Part shown: in pieces, positions 53,830-62,987 of the stretch
Layout: each line of letters opens with the position of its first letter
How positions within the stretch are numbered: the first letter of the stretch is position 1
Assembly (NCBI GenBank): GCA_903929755.1
Contig: CAIYVZ010000206.1
Location: 1-64,000 of the forward strand
Origin: an uncultured Acidobacteriia bacterium
Lineage (GTDB): Bacteria > Acidobacteriota > Terriglobia > Bryobacterales > Bryobacteraceae
Direction: 5' to 3'
DNA length: 64,000 bases
Translations under genes and position numbers: made by a program
The notes under the pieces: generated by a model
Seen by the model: the letters and a program-made list of their open reading frames with translations, nothing else
Told to the model about the DNA's origin: nothing
Databases searched by the model: none

Positions 53830-54924
53830 TTGGACTATCACATCAGATTGGGATCTGTACTTGGGTTCGTGCAGCGATCGGCAAAAGCTCTTGGTGTTTA
53901 CCTGCCTGGGCACGAGGTGGCGGAGGTCTCGAACAAGCTGGAGGCATTTCGCCTCTTCGCCTATGTAGAGCAGGAACTCGGGTTTCCCCCGACCCTGCCG
54001 TCTCTTCCGGACCTGGTCCGCCTGGCGGAGCCACTGCCACCTTTGCAGAGAAGCTTTGCGCTGGAAGGCATCGCGCATTATTACGCGAACAACGTAGCCC
54101 CCGAGAATTTCGAAGGCGGACTATTGGCGGATCCCGCGCTCCCCGAGACCGCGATGGTGCCCATGCACGCCGGCATGGGGATTTCCTTTGCGACGGCCGC
54201 GCTTGCTGACCTGGGCCTTTCACCGTCCGCCGCGGAATTGCACGACGCGCTGGGCGGGTTTATTCAGCGTTGCCACGAGCATTCCCGTCCCGGATGGCAT
54301 AACAGCGCCATTGAGGCCATGGGGCTCACGGTCCGAACGCTTCATCCTCACCTTCGCATGCCCGTGAGCGAGGCGCTGGGTGAAATCGACCCTTCCGCAC
54401 AGCACCTGTTCTGGCATGGTGTCGGCCGGTCACTGTACTTTATTCCCAAAAACTTCCTGACTTTTGGAGGCTCCCACGAGCGCGCGCTGGAGTCGGCGAT
54501 CGACGAAGCCCCCACGCCGGAATGCTGTTCCAACGCAGTGGCTGGCCTCGTGTGGGCCGTCACCCTGGTCAATATCAAATGCCCCGGGATTGTGGAGAAT
54601 CTTCTGCAGAAATGCGGCCCCTTCCAAATGCCGCTAGCTTTCACGAACGGCGTTGTCTCTGCCCTGATGGTCTGGAAGCACATGGTGCCGGACGGCGAGG
54701 GAGTTCTTGCGCCTTACCTGCAGGGTATTTCGCCCGGCGGCATCCATTTCGGACGCTGGAATGACCTCATCGCGGAGCCGGCCAGAGAGGCGTTTGTCGA
54801 AACCTTCCCCGTGTTAACCACCCCGGTGGCACCCGGTCAGCCGCCCGCCGGAACCCCCACCATCGCAGACCTCTTCCAGTACCATGAGACTGGCATGAAC
54901 CCGCACCTTTCCCTCGGCTCATGA
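53830..54924 (+). CDS. Unknown protein with faint DUF1702 resemblance
   Basis: 364 residues, soluble, starting at TTG 53830; no ATG or GTG is available between the in-frame stop at 53773 and this codon, and GGTGA lies just upstream. Blocks LQRSFALEGIAHYYANN, MHAGMGISFATAALADLGL, LFWHGVGRSLYFIPKNFLTF and CCSNAVAGLVWAVTLVN follow the order and shape of DUF1702 proteins (enediyne E3/UnbL type: a buried EGxA, GxGWAxA and GxGRxLWF), but similarity is faint. Its stop overlaps the ATG of the UbiB-like gene (ATGA), so the two proteins are co-translated. No catalytic residues are recognised. Confidence 0.6.
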   Translation: MDYHIRLGSVLGFVQRSAKALGVYLPGHEVAEVSNKLEAFRLFAYVEQELGFPPTLPSLPDLVRLAEPLPPLQRSFALEGIAHYYANNVAPENFEGGLLADPALPETAMVPMHAGMGISFATAALADLGLSPSAAELHDALGGFIQRCHEHSRPGWHNSAIEAMGLTVRTLHPHLRMPVSEALGEIDPSAQHLFWHGVGRSLYFIPKNFLTFGGSHERALESAIDEAPTPECCSNAVAGLVWAVTLVNIKCPGIVENLLQKCGPFQMPLAFTNGVVSALMVWKHMVPDGEGVLAPYLQGISPGGIHFGRWNDLIAEPAREAFVETFPVLTTPVAPGQPPAGTPTIADLFQYHETGMNPHLSLGS

Positions 54925-56597
54925 GTTCCATCCAGCCAATCATTGACTACGCCAAACGGATGCTTCAGATCATGGGGGTTATGGCCTCTCAGATCGCGAA
55001 GCTGGCTGCGCGGAACCTGCGGGGGCTGCCCCTCGAAGGCCCCGACCTGCTGCGGGAAGGTTTTGAGAAGGCCGGCGGAACCTTCGTGAAGTTCGGCCAG
55101 ATTCTGGCCCTCCAGGTGGATACGCTCCCGCGCGAGTACTGTACCGCCCTCATGGCGCTGCTGGACCGAATGCCAACCGCGAGCAGGGAAGAGGTCCTCC
55201 GTACTTTTCAGGAAGAGCTCAAAGCAGCACCTGAATCGCTGTATCTTGATTTCGACTATGAGGCCATCGCGTCCGCTTCCATCGGCCAGGTTCACCGGGC
55301 ACGGCTTCACGATGGAACCCAGGTGGCGATTAAGGTTCAGCGCCCTAAAGTCCACCAGGATTTCCATCGCGACGTCCTCGTGATGCGTGGCTTCATCTGG
55401 CTCGTGTTCGCGCTGCGAATCCGGAGCCTCTACTTCATGCGGGATCCCATTCGTGAACTCGGCCACTGGACCGACGACGAACTGGACTACCGGAGAGAAG
55501 CCGCGCACTGCAACCTGCTCGCCCAAAACGCCGAAGGTTCCACCACGGAGCGGATTCCAAAAATCTACTGGGAACTGACCACTCCACGGGTCCTCACTAT
55601 GGAGTTCCTCGAAGGTCCCAATGTTTCCACGTACCTCAAATACGTCAAAAACGGCGACCACGAAGCGATCGGCAAACTGCGGGAAGCAGGTTTCGATCCG
55701 GCGATTTTCACCGGCAACGTCATCACGAACTTCCTTCGTGACGCCTTTCGGCATGGCGTTTTCCACGCCGACCTCCATCCTGCGAATCTCCTGATCCTGC
55801 CCAACAACGTGGTAGGGTACGTCGATTTCGGCATTGTGGCTTCGCTCACCCCCGAGGCCCGCCGGAAACAGATTGAGCTGACGCTTGCCTATGCGTCCGG
55901 CGATCCCGACGCGATTTACCGCGAGTTCATCAACATCTGCAAACCCAGCGGCGATGTGGATTTCGACGGCATCCGCCGCCAGATCGCCCAAATGACCCGG
56001 AACTGGTACGACGAACCGACCATTACCGGCAACGTCCGCTTCCGCGTCACCGTAACAGCGGCCATGATGGACCTTCTGACGGTCTGCCGCGACTATGGCA
56101 TCCTGGTCGATCAGGAGATGATCAAGTACATTCGCTCGACCATTCTGGTGGACGGTCTGGTGTCGCTGATCGCGCCCGGTCTGGATATTGCTGACTCTCT
56201 CCGCACAGTGGTGGAGGAGTATCTGATCGCACAGGCGCGCAGCAAGATACTCTCCCGCGCCGGGGGTTTATCCATGCTCACCGATCTGGTTATCTGGATG
56301 AAAATGGGTCCCGCCGCCATGCTCCGTTCTCTGGACATGGTGGAACGGCGTCAGCTTCGCCTGCGGGGCAGTGCCGGCCACGGACCGGGCAACGCACCGG
56401 GCCAGCAGCGCCTGAGTCGGCGGACCGCGGCGGTGCGTGCGGTATGGACTGTAGCCATCGTTTTCCTGGCGCTGGGAGGGGGACTTCCCTCCTGGCAGGC
56501 CACGCCGGGCCTCGCGGTCCTGGCGGTCGTTTTCGTCGCATCCTGGACACTTTGGATGCTCCTCCTGCTGCGCCGACTGGATACCCGGTTTGACTAA
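54921..56597 (+). CDS. UbiB/ABC1 (AarF) family atypical kinase
   Basis: 558 residues with all hallmarks of the family: the KxGQ motif FVKFGQILALQVDTLP (Lys57, Gln60), the Ala-rich loop ASASIGQVHRA, the ATP lysine VAIKVQRP (Lys138), the catalytic loop HADLHPAN (Asp284) and DFG (Asp302). Two C-terminal membrane helices (VAIVFLALGGGLPSW and LAVLAVVFVASWTLWMLLLL) anchor it. UbiB proteins act as ATPases that make membrane prenyl lipids such as quinones accessible to enzymes. It overlaps the unknown gene before it by four bases and the pseudokinase after it by eight. No quinone-biosynthesis gene lies nearby. Confidence 0.9.
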   Translation: MSSIQPIIDYAKRMLQIMGVMASQIAKLAARNLRGLPLEGPDLLREGFEKAGGTFVKFGQILALQVDTLPREYCTALMALLDRMPTASREEVLRTFQEELKAAPESLYLDFDYEAIASASIGQVHRARLHDGTQVAIKVQRPKVHQDFHRDVLVMRGFIWLVFALRIRSLYFMRDPIRELGHWTDDELDYRREAAHCNLLAQNAEGSTTERIPKIYWELTTPRVLTMEFLEGPNVSTYLKYVKNGDHEAIGKLREAGFDPAIFTGNVITNFLRDAFRHGVFHADLHPANLLILPNNVVGYVDFGIVASLTPEARRKQIELTLAYASGDPDAIYREFINICKPSGDVDFDGIRRQIAQMTRNWYDEPTITGNVRFRVTVTAAMMDLLTVCRDYGILVDQEMIKYIRSTILVDGLVSLIAPGLDIADSLRTVVEEYLIAQARSKILSRAGGLSMLTDLVIWMKMGPAAMLRSLDMVERRQLRLRGSAGHGPGNAPGQQRLSRRTAAVRAVWTVAIVFLALGGGLPSWQATPGLAVLAVVFVASWTLWMLLLLRRLDTRFD

Positions 56598-58161
56598 ACA
56601 CGAAACCAACGCCGACAATGTCTTCCGCCGGTTTGGCCTGGAAGCGCCCGGGCTTCTGGGTGGCCTTGCCGTACCACCCCGCAGCGACGGGATCGGTGCC
56701 GGCGAAAAACTCAAAGACGCCTTAGAACAACTTGGCGGAATCTACCTTGCGTTCGCGGAATTTCTGCTGTGGCGGTCGGATCTGCTCGGCGTGGACTACC
56801 TGATGGCTCTCCGCAAAGTGCGGCCCGACTGTCAACCGGTACCCCGCGACACCGCCGTGGCTCTCATCCGTCAGGAACTGGGCGAAAAGGCCAACGAAGT
56901 GGTCGGCGAAATGGAGACCCAACCCGTCTGGTCCACGCTCTCCCGCACGGCCTGGCTCAGCCGGTACTGCGGTTCCACAGTGGTGGTTCAGGTGGCCCAG
57001 GAACCTTTCCCGGAAGCCGAACTGGCCCGGTTTGAAACCGGTATCCGGTACCTGGGCGGTACAGATGTCCGCCAGGTGGCTGCGCCGGAGATTATTGCGG
57101 AATTCCGCAGCTGGCTGCGTCAGGCCGAATCCTGCGTCACCGAACGTTCCTACCTGGAGGTGCTCGGCCGCGTCAGTGGCGACACCATGGTCGCGTATCC
57201 GGTCCTGATACCGGAGATTTCTACCAGTCGCGTCCTGTGCTGGCCGTGGATCGAAGGAGAGACCGTGAGTTCGCTGGTCCGCCGCGGCTCTGTGGACGCG
57301 GTCACTCAGGTTGCGATGACCGTCCTCGAACAGTTCTGCAGCCTTTCTGTCGTCGATGCGGAACTCGATTGGGACGCCATGGTGCTGCCGGAAGGTGGTA
57401 AGCGCCTCGCCGTGCGGCGTGTGAGCCACCCTCTGGCGATCCCGTCGTCGCAGGTCAATGCGGGCATGAAGTACCTGGCTGCGGTCCTGGAGGGACGCAC
57501 TTCCCTCGCGGTCCAGACGCTGGTGAAGCTGACGGTCGGCAAGTCAACGGCAAATCTGGAGTCCTCACTCCTGGGCCTGATGTCTGCCCTGGAACCGGAG
57601 TTGAAGGTGAACCTGTGGTTCCCGGAATCGGCCGCGGCGTTTGAGAGCAACTGGCAGGCCCTGGCCCACTTGGGCGGCGGCAGGCCCCTGTACCTCAATT
57701 GCCTCCATCGAAATCTGATGGCGGTGGGCTATTGGACAGCCGAAGCCGTCGCCGCCGGCGGAACAGCCGCTGACACCATCGCGGATGCCCATTGGCCCGT
57801 GGTGGAGCGGATGGTGAAGCTGAATGCCTCCAGGTTCCTGAAACCTGAAGTGCTGACCGAGTGGGCGGTCGGCCTGGGCTTGCTGGGCTTCGGAGCTGTC
57901 CGCGAAGCCAACCGGTTTGCGGAGGAAGTCCGCGACAACAGCGTCACGCTGGAAGTGGACCTGGGGGCGGGCCGAAAGCCGGCCCGGGGACACGGCGGCA
58001 GTTCCATCCTCCGACAATTACTGATTGCCGGCCTCCTCGCCGCCCTGCTGTTCATTCTGCGCTGGGGCGGAACTGTGAACCCTGGGGCGCAGGGAATCCT
58101 GGTCGTGGCGGGCTCCTTGATCCTGGTGGCGCTGTTCTGGGCGGTCGCGCGAATCCGATAG
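56590..58161 (+). CDS. UbiB/ABC1-like pseudokinase
   Basis: 523 residues from TTG 56590, inside the end of the UbiB-like gene. It keeps the family outline: LGGIYLAFAEFLLWRSDLLG aligns with the KxGQ region, PVWSTLSRTAWLSRYCGS with the Ala-rich loop, VVVQVAQEPF with the ATP-lysine strand, ISTSRVLCWPWIEGETVSSLV with the hinge, and two C-terminal membrane helices remain. Every functional residue is gone: no KxGQ, Gln in place of the ATP lysine, and LSVVDAELDWDAM where HxDxHPxN should be, with no DFG. It therefore cannot act as a kinase or ATPase and probably serves as a scaffold or regulator of the upstream kinase. Confidence 0.75.
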   Translation: MTKHETNADNVFRRFGLEAPGLLGGLAVPPRSDGIGAGEKLKDALEQLGGIYLAFAEFLLWRSDLLGVDYLMALRKVRPDCQPVPRDTAVALIRQELGEKANEVVGEMETQPVWSTLSRTAWLSRYCGSTVVVQVAQEPFPEAELARFETGIRYLGGTDVRQVAAPEIIAEFRSWLRQAESCVTERSYLEVLGRVSGDTMVAYPVLIPEISTSRVLCWPWIEGETVSSLVRRGSVDAVTQVAMTVLEQFCSLSVVDAELDWDAMVLPEGGKRLAVRRVSHPLAIPSSQVNAGMKYLAAVLEGRTSLAVQTLVKLTVGKSTANLESSLLGLMSALEPELKVNLWFPESAAAFESNWQALAHLGGGRPLYLNCLHRNLMAVGYWTAEAVAAGGTAADTIADAHWPVVERMVKLNASRFLKPEVLTEWAVGLGLLGFGAVREANRFAEEVRDNSVTLEVDLGAGRKPARGHGGSSILRQLLIAGLLAALLFILRWGGTVNPGAQGILVVAGSLILVALFWAVARIR

Positions 58162-58242: not shown

Positions 58243-58703
58243 ATGCAGCGCTTTGACATCACGCTGAAGACCATGCTCCAGCGCCAACTGCAAGGGGGCG
58301 CTCTGGCCCGTCTCCTGGGCTTTTCCATCCGTGAATGGCTGGATGCCGAACTGCCCGAGGCTGGCCTGCCGGAAAAACGAGTGAGGACAGCCAGGATGCG
58401 GGCCTGCGCCAGTTTGGGAGCATAATAGAGGAAGAGATCAAGAAAATGCCGATTGTGATCGACCTGAATACGCATACCGTCTTCGGCCCCCATTACCGCC
58501 GGGGCCTGAAAGAAGGTATTGAGGAAGGCGTGGGTCAAGGTATCCGTCAGAACTTAACAAGTCTGATCACCCACCGCTTTGGCAAGATCCCGGCCCGGTA
58601 CGCCCGGCGGCTGAACGCCATGTCGTCTACCGAACTACAGGCGCTCTCAGATCGGCTATTCAGTGCCGGAACCATCAGCGAGCTCTTCGGCCCGCCCGCC
58701 TAA
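58243..58703 (+). pseudogene. Rpn/DUF4351-type nuclease pseudogene
   Basis: Starts MQRFDITLKTMLQR and RLLGFSIREWLDAELPEAG, the N-terminus of Rpn-like PD-(D/E)XK family proteins, then shifts frame near 58380 and continues FGSIIEEEIKKMPIVIDL and GLKEGIEEGVGQGIRQNL to the family C-terminus (ALSDRLFSAGTISELFG). About 150 residues in the middle, including the nuclease core, are missing. Such genes are mobile and frequently decay. Confidence 0.65.
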
Positions 58704-59270: not shown

Positions 59271-60539
59271 ATGTCAAAGAAGACCACGGTAGGCATTGCC
59301 CACTCGGACGCCGATCTCGGCAAACCCGGCGAATACACCCGCGAGCAGCTGGATCGCGTGAAGGAAATGATCCGGGGCATCGCCGATCAGACCATGGGCG
59401 GCATGCACAAGATCGTCAAGAAGGGCGACAAGGTCCTAATCAAGATCAACACCGTCATCCCCATCGACCCGAACGAGGGGTTCACCACCGATCCACGCAT
59501 GCTGGAAGCGCTCATCGAACTCGTCCAGGAACAGCAGCCCTCGCGCATCCGGATCGGCGAACGCTGCGCCATGGGCGGCGATACGAAGAATGCCATGGAC
59601 GTCTGCGGGATCACCGCCGTGGCGGAACGCACCGGAGTTGAACTCTGCCCGTTCGACAACGAGCCGTTCGACATGTTCAAGATCGACCGGCCCATTAGTT
59701 TCAACGAATTCCCCGTCCCGCGCGCCGTCCTCGAAGCCGATTGCTACATCGGCCTCCCGAAGATGAAGGTCCACCTCCACACCACCTTCACCGGTGCCAT
59801 GAAGCTCCAGTTTGGCAACCTGCCCGACTATGACTGGATGGTCCGCTGCCACAAAGATGACATCTACCAGAAGATCTGCAACCTGACGCTGGCCGCCAAA
59901 CCCACCTGGTTCATCATGGATTCCCTCTACGCCTGCCAGGGCAACGGCCCTTTCAGCGCGTATCGTGACGATCTGATCAAGGATTTCAACACCCTCTGCG
60001 GCGGCCCCGATCCCGTTGCCGTCGATACCATCTGCGAAGCCCTCATGGACTGGGAAGACCCGGGTACCAACGTCCCCTCCACCATCCTGGGCGCCGCCGA
60101 CGGCCTCGGCACCAATAACATGGACGAGATCGAACTCACTGGCGCCCCGCTCGACAAAGTGAAGCGCCGCTTCCGCCGCCAGAACAATAAGCTGCAGGGT
60201 TCCTTCAAGAATGTGAACGTGGTGATGGGCTCCACCTGCGAAGCCGGCTGCAAGGCCATCCTGCGGATTCAGCTCGATCAGGCTAAAGCCGCCGGAACTC
60301 TCGACAACCTGAAGCGCCCGGTCCACATTTTCACCGGCCTCCAGTTCGAAGAGATCAAGCCGGTTGACGGCGACGTCATCCTCTTCGGCGATTGCGCTAA
60401 ACCACTTCTGGAGCGCTTCCCCAACGCGAAGTACTGGGGCGCCACCGAAGAGCACCCCAACTGCACCCCCATTTGGGCCAACATCCCTTCGCGTTCCATC
60501 GCGAACTACCTGCAAACGTTAACGGAGATATCGAGTTGA
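59271..60539 (+). CDS. DUF362 domain protein
   Basis: 422 residues, no signal peptide. VLIKINTVIPIDPNEGFTTDP, IRIGERCAMGGDTKNAM, CYIGLPKMKVHLHTTFTGAMK and GGPDPVAVDTICEALM are the DUF362 blocks (a fold related to LarA-like or uncharacterised metal proteins). Scattered cysteines are present but no ferredoxin-type cluster. Its TGA overlaps the TTG start of the transketolase gene, so the products are made together. The family has no assigned reaction. Confidence 0.8.
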   Translation: MSKKTTVGIAHSDADLGKPGEYTREQLDRVKEMIRGIADQTMGGMHKIVKKGDKVLIKINTVIPIDPNEGFTTDPRMLEALIELVQEQQPSRIRIGERCAMGGDTKNAMDVCGITAVAERTGVELCPFDNEPFDMFKIDRPISFNEFPVPRAVLEADCYIGLPKMKVHLHTTFTGAMKLQFGNLPDYDWMVRCHKDDIYQKICNLTLAAKPTWFIMDSLYACQGNGPFSAYRDDLIKDFNTLCGGPDPVAVDTICEALMDWEDPGTNVPSTILGAADGLGTNNMDEIELTGAPLDKVKRRFRRQNNKLQGSFKNVNVVMGSTCEAGCKAILRIQLDQAKAAGTLDNLKRPVHIFTGLQFEEIKPVDGDVILFGDCAKPLLERFPNAKYWGATEEHPNCTPIWANIPSRSIANYLQTLTEISS

Positions 60540-62602
60540 GGACGAGTTTCACAGCATCCCACGCCACACAAGTGCGCAAGGGTATTCTCAAGCTCCTGGA
60601 GATCAAGGATTCGGACATCCGCATCCTCACGCTGGAGCAATGCCGCGATGCGGCTGATAAAGGCCTCCACGCGGGCGGCGCATTTTCCGCCACCGTGCCA
60701 CTGGTCTCGCTCTATTACGGCGGTTTCCTCGATATCGACGTCGAGAACCCCACCAAACGCGGCCAGGATATGTTCACGCTCAGCAAGGGCCACGCCGTAG
60801 CTGCCATGGCGTCCATCTACGCCGAACTGGGCTACTTCGACCGCTCTCTGCTGAAGGGTTCCCGCTCCTACGCCAGCATCCTGAACGGCCACCCCGGTCC
60901 CGTCCTGCCCGGCGTCCACATCGCTACCGGCCCCATGGGGCAGGGCATCGCCGTCGCCCAGGGTTTCGCCATCGCCGGCCACACCAGCCCGCGCTTCGAT
61001 TCCTACGCGCTCTGCGGTGACGGCGAACTCCAGGAAGGCCCCGTCTGGGAAGCCGTCATGTTCGCCGGCCAGAAGAAGCTCGACAACTTCTGTGTCATGG
61101 TGGATCAGAACAACGGCCAGCTCGACATGGCCAACCGCATGATCTTCCCCACGCCGGATCTGGAAGCCGTTTTCGCCGCCTTCGACTGGAACGTCCACAG
61201 CTGCGACGCCACCCAGTATTCCTCCGTTTTCGACGCCCTCGACCAGTTCCGCAACGGAGTCCGCAACGGCAAGCCGACCGCCATCATCTGCCACACCTCC
61301 AAAGGTCATGGCGCGTTCTCTGACTTCCTCAACAAGCACAAGGTCACCGGGACCGATGCCCTGATGGCGCAGGAACTTCGCCTCCAGGCCGACCAGCGCG
61401 CCGCCCGCGTCGCCGATTTCGACCGCTACGCCCGCGATTGCGACCGCGCCGCTCACGAAACCCTGCTCAACATCGCCGCGCGCATGAATCTCGACGTCGC
61501 CGCGGGCTTCACCCAGGTCGTCGGCCCCGTTCGCACCAAACGCGCCGAACCCCGCAACAAGCAGATCTGTTACGACGCGGCCCAGCTCCCGAAGTTCGAC
61601 CCGAAGAAGGAATACGCCGCGCAGGACGTCATCACCGCGGCCATGAAGATCTTCGCCCGCGACCCGCGCGTCATCTCCGTCGATTCCGATCTCGCCACCA
61701 CCAGCGGTCTCGAAGCCGGCATCGCGGCGGTCGATCAAAAACGCGCCCTCAACGTCGGCGTCGCCGAAGCCAACATGATGAACCTCGGCGAAGCGTTTGC
61801 CGCCCTCGGCTATAACGCCTGGGTCAGCACCTTCTGCCCGTTCTTCGATTGGAAAGTGATGCGCCGCATCGCCGTCGGCCATCAGGAACGTCTCGAAGCG
61901 ATAGCGGATCCCAAAAGCTGGCTCAGCGAAGGCCACGGCCTGGATCTCACCTACCTCGCCACCGCGCCCAACTTCGAAACCCGCACCAACGGCGCTACCC
62001 ACATGGGGAACGACGACATCACCGTCTTCGATGGCATGGCCCATCTGAAGATCATCGACGTCTCCTGCCCCGAACAACTCCTCGGCATCATGAAGTGGAT
62101 CGTGGCCGGTAACCAGGGCGTCACCTACGTCCGTGTGATGCGCACCGGCTCCGCTGTCATCTATCCCACCGGCTACGAATTCCAGTTCGGTAAAGCCTCC
62201 GTCGTGCGCCAGTCCGAAACCGATTCCGCCGTCATCATCAGCTCCGGCCGAGGCGTTCACGAAGCCCTCTCCACTGCCGCCCGCTGCGCTGAAAAAGGCA
62301 TCGGCGTCACCGTTATCGACATGCCGTCCGTCGATGAAGCCTGCCTCCTCAGGCTTTGCGATTCAGACAAGCTCGTCCTCTTCGCCGAGCAGAACAACGG
62401 CTATCTCTGGAACGCTTTTATCCGGACCGCCGCGAAGCATCGCAAAGCCTGGGCCGAACGCCTCCGAGTCCTCTCCATCAACACGCTCGACCAGCATGGC
62501 GAGAAGCAATTCATCCATTCCGGGACGTACGAAGAACTGCTCGACGCCTTCCATCTCTCCCCGGTACAGTTAGCGCAAGTCATTCTCGATAAAGTCGGAT
62601 AA
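60536..62602 (+). CDS. Transketolase-like thiamine diphosphate enzyme
   Basis: 688 residues from TTG 60536 (LRTSFTASHATQVRKGILKL), overlapping the preceding TGA (TTGA) with GGAG eight bases upstream. N-terminal TPP-binding domain: LSKGHAVAAMASIYAELG, GPMGQGIAVAQGFAIAG, GDGELQEGPVWEAVMFA and VDQNNGQLD. Central pyrimidine domain: NVGVAEANMMNLGEAFAALG (the essential Glu), and a C-terminal domain from about residue 540. Length and domain order are those of a full transketolase, but the central region differs from TktA, so the substrate may be different. In an operon with DUF362 and cupin genes. Confidence 0.85.
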   Translation: MRTSFTASHATQVRKGILKLLEIKDSDIRILTLEQCRDAADKGLHAGGAFSATVPLVSLYYGGFLDIDVENPTKRGQDMFTLSKGHAVAAMASIYAELGYFDRSLLKGSRSYASILNGHPGPVLPGVHIATGPMGQGIAVAQGFAIAGHTSPRFDSYALCGDGELQEGPVWEAVMFAGQKKLDNFCVMVDQNNGQLDMANRMIFPTPDLEAVFAAFDWNVHSCDATQYSSVFDALDQFRNGVRNGKPTAIICHTSKGHGAFSDFLNKHKVTGTDALMAQELRLQADQRAARVADFDRYARDCDRAAHETLLNIAARMNLDVAAGFTQVVGPVRTKRAEPRNKQICYDAAQLPKFDPKKEYAAQDVITAAMKIFARDPRVISVDSDLATTSGLEAGIAAVDQKRALNVGVAEANMMNLGEAFAALGYNAWVSTFCPFFDWKVMRRIAVGHQERLEAIADPKSWLSEGHGLDLTYLATAPNFETRTNGATHMGNDDITVFDGMAHLKIIDVSCPEQLLGIMKWIVAGNQGVTYVRVMRTGSAVIYPTGYEFQFGKASVVRQSETDSAVIISSGRGVHEALSTAARCAEKGIGVTVIDMPSVDEACLLRLCDSDKLVLFAEQNNGYLWNAFIRTAAKHRKAWAERLRVLSINTLDQHGEKQFIHSGTYEELLDAFHLSPVQLAQVILDKVG

Positions 62603-62603
62603 C

Positions 62604-62987
62604 ATGCCCGCACTCCACGAATCTCAAACTGAAGAACTCGACCTCCCCGGCCGCCACCTCCGCTGGGTCGCCAATCAGGAACTCATTGGCGCGAAACACT
62701 GCTCCTCCTGCGTGATCCGCGTGGAGGCTGGCCACACCGTCAAGCCCGCCCACTCGCACCCCAACGGCGAAGAGCTCATCTACATCATCACGGGCACGGG
62801 ACGCGTCTGGATTGAAGGCGAAATCTCGCCCGTAAGCGCGGGCAGCATCGTCCTCTTCCCGCAGGGCCATGTCCACATGCTGCAGAACAACGGGACTGAA
62901 GAAATGAAGGTCGTCTGCTTCTTCTCGCCCGCCACCGACCTCGATAACTACAAGATGTTCCCCGACGTAGAATTCCCGGATGCCTGA
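62604..62987 (+). CDS. Cupin domain protein
   Basis: 127 residues. A single cupin barrel with the metal-binding signature PAHSHPNGEELIYIITGTGRV (two His and Glu) and PQGHVHMLQN (third His). It begins one base after the transketolase stop and closes the DUF362-transketolase-cupin operon. Small cupins may act as isomerases, epimerases or sugar binders; which applies here is not known. Confidence 0.85.
   Translation: MPALHESQTEELDLPGRHLRWVANQELIGAKHCSSCVIRVEAGHTVKPAHSHPNGEELIYIITGTGRVWIEGEISPVSAGSIVLFPQGHVHMLQNNGTEEMKVVCFFSPATDLDNYKMFPDVEFPDA

Follow-up and report, generated by a model that had tools for sequence, protein, structure and literature searches.

Why would a bacterium keep, in overlapping genes, an intact atypical kinase of the ABC1/UbiB family and a second member of the family that has lost the catalytic residues? 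The question is raised by three consecutive genes, here called A, B and C, on the forward strand of a 64,000-nucleotide stretch of DNA (the window: positions 1 to 64,000 of contig CAIYVZ010000206.1, assembly GCA_903929755.1) from an uncultured bacterium of the Bryobacteraceae (Acidobacteriota). A preliminary description had read the three as one unit, in which a UbiB kinase (B) and a UbiB-derived pseudokinase (C) form a heteromeric membrane ATPase whose substrate is handled by a soluble protein (A) with a faint DUF1702-like pattern. The conserved unit is smaller and consists of the B-C pair. ABC1 lipid ATPases are already known as a family, and pseudokinases acting as partner proteins are nothing new in themselves; what appears to be new is the conserved pairing of the two as a gene pair. 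The way in which ABC1/UbiB proteins spend ATP on moving or modifying hydrophobic molecules has yet to be explained, for human COQ8A as for the proteins of plant plastoglobules. In a naturally occurring, conserved pair with one ABC1 protein active and the other dead, catalysis is split off from scaffold, and each role could be tested separately. DUF1702-like proteins and ABC1 pseudokinases also gain a defined genetic context.

Gene layout in the window

The three open reading frames (ORFs) lie on contig C206 of the genome called G000 here. A (53830..54924, TTG start) encodes a 364-residue protein which, from family alignment, profile comparison and a structural model, is predicted to be all-helical and is probably a remote relative of DUF1702. 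B (54921..56597, ATG start) encodes a canonical ABC1/UbiB atypical kinase of 558 residues with the catalytic residues, the KxGQ extension and C-terminal hydrophobic helices. C (56590..58161, TTG start) encodes a 523-residue ABC1 pseudokinase in which the fold is predicted to be kept, the catalytic set is lost and two C-terminal hydrophobic helices are present. A and B overlap by 4 bases (ATGA, 54921..54924), and B and C by 8 (TTGACTAA, 56590..56597). Both overlaps had been noted in the preliminary description and agree with the coordinates found here. They recur in a second species of the genus (genome G003, locus L027), where the order A-B-C and the overlap lengths of 4 and 8 bases are the same as in the window. 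Between the two loci, amino-acid identity is 73% for A, 87% for B and 71% for C. The ratio of nonsynonymous to synonymous substitution rates (dN/dS) is 0.15, 0.06 and 0.17, respectively, with dS at 1.3 to 1.4, near saturation. These low values, which indicate purifying selection, and the retention of order and overlaps in G003 mark all three as maintained genes.

Distribution of the pair

Loci containing C, 20 in total, were collected from relatives within the genus and from a sample of the phylum. Among 61 relatives, the genome of the window included, a C query matched nine. Seven of these are genus genomes with a full-length C, at nine loci in all since G000 and G003 have two apiece; the remaining two are G012, a member of the genus with a partial C, and G044, outside the genus, with a weak match (E 2.4e-4) that was not counted as C. 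In the phylum sample, C-type proteins occur in at least 10 of 396 genomes (G000, G075, G176, G232, G286, G305, G306, G428, G439 and G445); all phylum genome counts are lower bounds, with few candidates scored per genome. One scan of genome contigs for presence outside Acidobacteriota gave 7 loci, all apparently from genus genomes already counted. Genes were called with a simple ORF picker that missed B of G232, A of G428 and A of G232:C84; these were taken from similarity searches and alignment instead.

B is encoded on the strand of C, with 0-2 genes between them, in 17 of the 20 loci, which represent nine genera and nine families. The association holds for all nine full-length genus loci and for 8 of 10 loci elsewhere in the phylum. 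At the three C loci where B was not found (L034, L098 and L100, including the partial C of G012) the contig stops on the side of B. Adjacency beyond this genome had been set beforehand as a test of the arrangement, and the genes do neighbour each other in other genomes.

The third member of the locus is more variable. The most common one is a short protein here called P, present in 14 of the 20 fetched stretches and absent from the window locus; A is present in 12, and P, A or both in 18. Gene orders include A-B-C (window and L027 only), B-P-C, B-A-C, B-P-A-C and B-C-P among others, and A lies on the other strand in L030, L032 and L033. Because A is missing from the fetched stretch of 8 of the 20 C loci, the A-B-C trio is ruled out as the conserved unit. 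What stands of the trio as first proposed is its constant B-C pair; among the loci examined, the exact order A-B-C recurs only in G003.

An intact kinase and a pseudokinase

B scores 203.9 bits against PF03109, well above the curated cut-off of 22.9. All of the motif residues attributed to it in the preliminary description are present: Lys57 and Gln60 of KxGQ, Lys138 (ATP-binding), Asp284 (catalytic) and Asp302 (DFG). Against TIGR01982, the NCBIfam equivalog model for UbiB, B reaches 258.7 bits, far below the cut-off of 487.55, and is therefore not classed as a UbiB of ubiquinone biosynthesis. In an alignment of 69 ABC1 proteins, the five residues are retained by 17 of 17 partner B proteins and by 34 of 34 other ABC1 proteins.

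In C the same five positions are occupied by Ala, Glu, Gln, Glu and Arg. The full set is kept by none of the 18 C-type proteins in the alignment, with single letters surviving in some. Conservation among the C proteins is low, with only 10 invariant columns in 13 aligned sequences. In the place of KxGQ (residues 59-66) they carry a pattern of their own, L..R.D.L, in which Leu59 and Arg62 do not vary among these 13 and Asp64 and Leu66 hardly do. Sequence profiles detect just the N-terminal two fifths of an ABC1 protein in C, and the proposed profile search against ABC1 gave a divided result: TIGR01982 matches residues 37-230 at 49.3 bits (E 2.6e-13), and PF03109 gives 16.3 bits, under its cut-off.

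The predicted structure extends this similarity. An AlphaFold2 model of C, built with 10 aligned sequences, has a mean predicted local distance difference test score (pLDDT) of 79. It is closest to human COQ8A (5i35), with Z 22.3 over 351 aligned residues, a root-mean-square deviation of 4.3 and 9% identity (model range 43-412), and the predicted ABC1 fold includes the N-terminal KxGQ region. The next matches are mycobacterial ABC1 structures (Z 15.6 to 16.9), ahead of RIO and other kinases (12.5 or less); the best Foldseek E-value is 3.8e-12. An ABC1 fold for C had also been set beforehand as a test, and the model agrees with it. Two hydrophobic helices follow at the C-terminus (472-495 and 498-522 in the model, with hydropathy peaks of 2.26 and 2.55). 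Model, hydropathy and alignment thus agree with the earlier account of a third protein that keeps the family outline and both C-terminal helices and has none of the five residues. Taken together, sequence and model support C as an ABC1 pseudokinase with a retained fold and lost catalytic residues.

In an IQ-TREE analysis of the 69 ABC1 rows (18 C-type, 17 partner B and 34 other proteins), one branch (support 100/99) separates C from all other rows, and another (100/100) does the same for B. Both groupings are present in all 200 bootstrap trees examined. Motif counts and tree therefore bear out a UbiB/ABC1 pseudokinase of single origin; the tree is unrooted and so does not give the parent kinase, and the part of the earlier wording that would derive C from B does not follow from it. 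The C portion of the tree contains several long branches, two of them joining, and its internal order is unsure.

Co-occurrence and tree agreement

Within the genus, A and C match in the identical 8 of 19 genomes, one of which, G012, has only fragments of both. The chance of identical sets is 1.3e-5 if genomes are assumed to be independent, a figure that overstates the case because genomes of one genus are not. In the phylum sample A was found in at least 7 of 396 genomes, and every one of these 7 also has C. The tie between canonical ABC1 and C is looser: such a protein is present in 10 of the 19 genomes of the genus, and C accompanies it in 7 (chance probability 0.015).

In the genomes with two pairs (G000 and G003), each B and its own C fall into matching subclades. 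Trees of B and C for 16 pairs, compared without the G232 pair because its C is cut, have 6 of 13 splits in common, versus at most 3 in 2000 permutations, and the distances correlate with r 0.966.

Proteins A and P

A has no match in Pfam or NCBIfam at E <= 10, and PF08012 (DUF1702) matches nothing anywhere in the genome of the window at E <= 1; the direct profile search of A against DUF1702 that had been suggested thus came back empty. In a profile-profile comparison, an A profile of 15 rows against 11 aligned DUF1702 proteins scores 37.6 (P 5e-4, probability 31%), versus 25.3 or less for 60 column shuffles, 13.2 for the reversed profile and 15.7 to 20.4 for three ABC1 alignments. With one sequence alone the probability is 53%. 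Both families contain conserved blocks in the same order (EG, GxG..A, GxGR..F), whereas A falls under Pfam detection, has other neighbours and in several relatives carries an extra N-terminal P domain. The faint pattern noted earlier is therefore moderately supported, and A is probably a distant DUF1702 relative. Its highest hydropathy window is 1.7, which makes the solubility claimed for it likely, not certain. The model of A is all-helical (pLDDT 88.9, predicted template modelling score 0.90). As a known fold it was set aside, since no PDB structure matched (Foldseek best E 0.19; VIA-align best Z 6.2 over 49 residues); an unmatched fold here does not imply a new one.

Several further A sequences were observed. 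Three matches span stop codons (G002:C8, G003:C29 and G016:C582), perhaps past the ends of genes. G000 has two more A genes away from B-C, L103 (G000:C160:123000-141000) and L104 (G000:C89:11000-29000). One of them lies amid genes for an acyltransferase, FadL, a GMC oxidoreductase, a GDSL-like protein and X645, and the other adjoins a protein similar to the cyclic-nucleotide (cNMP)-binding protein described below. A tblastn search of 72,556 plasmid records with one A relative (L077) gave no match.

The extra N-terminal domain of several A relatives is P (profile comparison: probability 96.7%, E 4e-10). P also opens X413 in G305, and at L101 (G445:C23:195000-214500) it stands at the start of several proteins: a lone P, A relatives, a GDSL-like protein and two others. 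As a guess, P might be a shared address or docking tag. An assignment as phasin is not supported, with 1 of 13 members touching Phasin_2 at E 0.13. An amphipathic anchor at the N-terminus was likewise dropped: for 11 of 13 P sequences, shuffles reached the observed moment in 4 of 300 cases in L029 and in 39 to 149 of 300 in the other ten, and the observed moment is not unusual.

Gene surroundings

The second pair in G000 (contig C19, L026) has the order S-B-P-C, after which come a cNMP-binding protein and two SRPBCC proteins (PF03364, to which COQ10 also belongs). The other strand encodes a FadL-type porin (PF03349), a GDSL-like protein (E 0.005, under the cut-off) and a 644-residue protein without a Pfam match. 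Other loci include a flavoprotein of the CrtI family resembling phytoene desaturase/CrtO (160 bits, under the NCBIfam cut-off of 238) and a PlsC-type acyltransferase whose N-terminal half resembles a short-chain dehydrogenase/reductase (SDR; judged by eye, with NAD_binding_10 at E 0.018 in one). A PapA-like protein, an acyl-CoA/AMP ligase and a patatin are also found. The cNMP-binding protein occurs 3' of C in 5 of the 20 C loci (L026, L030, L031, L032 and L074). The CrtI-like oxidase, acyltransferase, FadL and SRPBCC genes at these other loci point to metabolism of hydrophobic lipids.

Proposed function and alternatives

On this basis B and C may form one lipid-handling machine, an ABC1 ATPase anchored in the membrane whose dead paralogue serves as its regulator or scaffold; we place the probability of this at a little under one half (about 0.45). 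In a single ABC1 (UbiB-type) complex, B would be the catalytic subunit and C the dead one, both kept in the membrane by their C-terminal hydrophobic helices. B, an ATPase rather than a protein kinase, would bind and hydrolyse ATP in the atypical ABC1 pocket, and C, without ATP-binding and catalytic residues, would tune the activity of B or offer a docking face for client proteins. The ATP cycle could help to extract a very hydrophobic molecule, isoprenoid-like and/or acylated, from a membrane or lipid body, or to deposit it there. This would serve the proteins whose genes surround the pair at other loci (CrtI-like oxidase, SDR-acyltransferase, SRPBCC carriers, FadL porins), and A may be a helical partner in the same machine, possibly holding substrate or product. 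The heteromeric membrane ATPase of the preliminary description fits the pairing, the matching subclades and the hydrophobic helices of both proteins. Contact between B and C, the ATPase activity of B, the class of substrate and the role of A are what we infer from these.

The parallels with described systems are partial. Work in yeast reports that the COQ8 fold endows the protein with ATPase activity and keeps larger protein substrates out (PMC8346625). COQ8A/COQ8 and bacterial UbiB (PF03109) resemble the pair in the family motifs of B, the predicted fold of C and the C-terminal hydrophobic helices of both; unlike them, the system here has two proteins, one of them dead, a B far under the UbiB cut-off, and different neighbours. 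The yeast UbiB proteins Cqd1 and Cqd2 are likewise two ABC1 proteins acting on membrane lipid distribution, in their case that of coenzyme Q, but both require active-site residues, counteract each other and are suggested to be active (PMC8346625). Plant plastoglobules contain ABC1K proteins, fibrillins and PES acyltransferases (PMC12587418), and cyanobacterial droplets contain ABC1K3, a fibrillin, CrtO and an SDR protein (PMC12923008). These bodies share with the loci described here ABC1 proteins, a CrtI/CrtO-type flavoenzyme, an acyltransferase and an SDR-type protein; here, in contrast, the acyltransferase itself has the SDR-like N-terminal half. This parallel is the basis for a further, distinctly doubtful suggestion, that Acidobacteriota have a plastoglobule-like lipid body or membrane domain in which an ABC1 kinase-pseudokinase heteromer would act as gatekeeper, P-domain proteins, among them P itself, A relatives and a GDSL-like protein, would be addressed there and A, with its helical structure unmatched in the PDB, would hold a lipid client. 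In the open full-text literature, among the matches listed and as judged by title and the start of the abstract, neither an ABC1 kinase-pseudokinase gene pair nor this module is described (subscription papers and preprints lay outside the search), in keeping with the earlier remark that no such arrangement was known. One of the papers names ABC1 among ordinary Legionella kinases (PMC9758233).

Several observations weigh against the lipid-handling complex. Canonical ABC1 proteins occur without C in G001, G009 and G018, two extra copies are present in G007, and most of the examined ABC1 proteins of the phylum are, as far as seen, without an adjoining C. Conversely, G012 (83% complete) has partial C and A matches only and no match to a canonical ABC1 protein, and C occurs without A in G286, G439 and G075. 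Shared species history would by itself make the B and C trees agree in part, and in 7 of 13 splits they disagree. No natural B-C fusion was noticed, a systematic search not having been part of the analysis. P has neither a Pfam family nor an excess of amphipathic character. Finally, the window locus consists of A-B-C alone, with no lipid genes beside it.

Alternatively, B could be a genuine protein kinase within a signalling switch in which C serves as its substrate, decoy or activator; the lipid genes would then be the pathway under control and not the place where the pair acts. Kinase-pseudokinase pairs are a common signalling design, and the cNMP-binding protein after C in 5 of 20 loci would suit such a role. 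The plastoglobule proteins ABC1K1 and ABC1K3 are discussed as possible regulators of VTE1 and CCD4 via phosphorylation (PMC12587418). However, B has the UbiB-specific KxGQ extension, and the ATPase activity and occlusion of larger substrates reported for the COQ8 fold (PMC8346625) also speak for an ATPase; a signalling switch is unlikely.

A comparably small chance attaches to C being a lipid-binding adaptor on its own, beyond kinase chemistry, which lies beside B only because both serve one pathway. The faster evolution of C than of B (dN/dS 0.17 and 0.06) and its few invariant columns are what such an adaptor would lead one to expect, but the 17 of 20 adjacent loci, the translational overlap and the matching B and C subclades favour joint action.

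The resemblance of A to DUF1702 raises another alternative, that the module serves specialised metabolism, in a pathway of the DUF1702/CRTAC1 type that is known to accompany enediyne polyketide genes and in which B-C would support only self-protection or export. A figure legend names DUF1702 an enediyne biosynthesis protein (PMC7692728). On 5 of 6 plasmid records (stretches with 1.5 kb flanks; L140-L144), DUF1702 genes adjoin CRTAC1/VCBS genes; on the sixth, Serratia plasmid NZ_MT039191.1 (33372-46235, L139), DUF1702 is near VCBS and ketosynthase genes. Within the C loci, G075 has an FG-GAP protein, and the ligase of G439 also matches a polyketide synthase/nonribosomal peptide synthetase model over its ligase part. 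Against this, no polyketide synthase was found among the 40 neighbour proteins (a subset) scanned with Pfam, and the CrtI-like, SDR-acyltransferase, FadL and SRPBCC genes are of lipid type, which leaves such a pathway improbable. On the Serratia plasmid, RnfD-like genes are also near DUF1702.

That C is a decaying duplicate without function, as the loss of its catalytic set might suggest, is very improbable: it was rejected on the dN/dS of 0.17 and the spread of a single C group across nine families of the phylum, and the long open frames of full-length C copies and the presence of B beside C in 17 of 20 loci are equally at odds with decay.

Other observations

Directly 3' of C in the window is a 122-residue frame with a DUF4351 domain (58335-58703). 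It is followed at 59271-62987 by a DUF362 protein, a transketolase-like protein and a cupin in succession, none of which is tied to the ABC1 module by anything seen here.

Two further arrangements of ABC1 genes were encountered. At L076 (G408:C108:37000-51000) two motif-intact ABC1 genes lie head to head on opposite strands; L076_5 (1055 residues), considered as a B-C fusion, was dropped because of these two opposite-strand genes. In another genus of the family, two ABC1 genes lie 12 kb apart (L153 and L160, G033:C61:145117 and 157097). The second of these is a weaker match (E 1.1e-24), and the two are perhaps another diverging pair.

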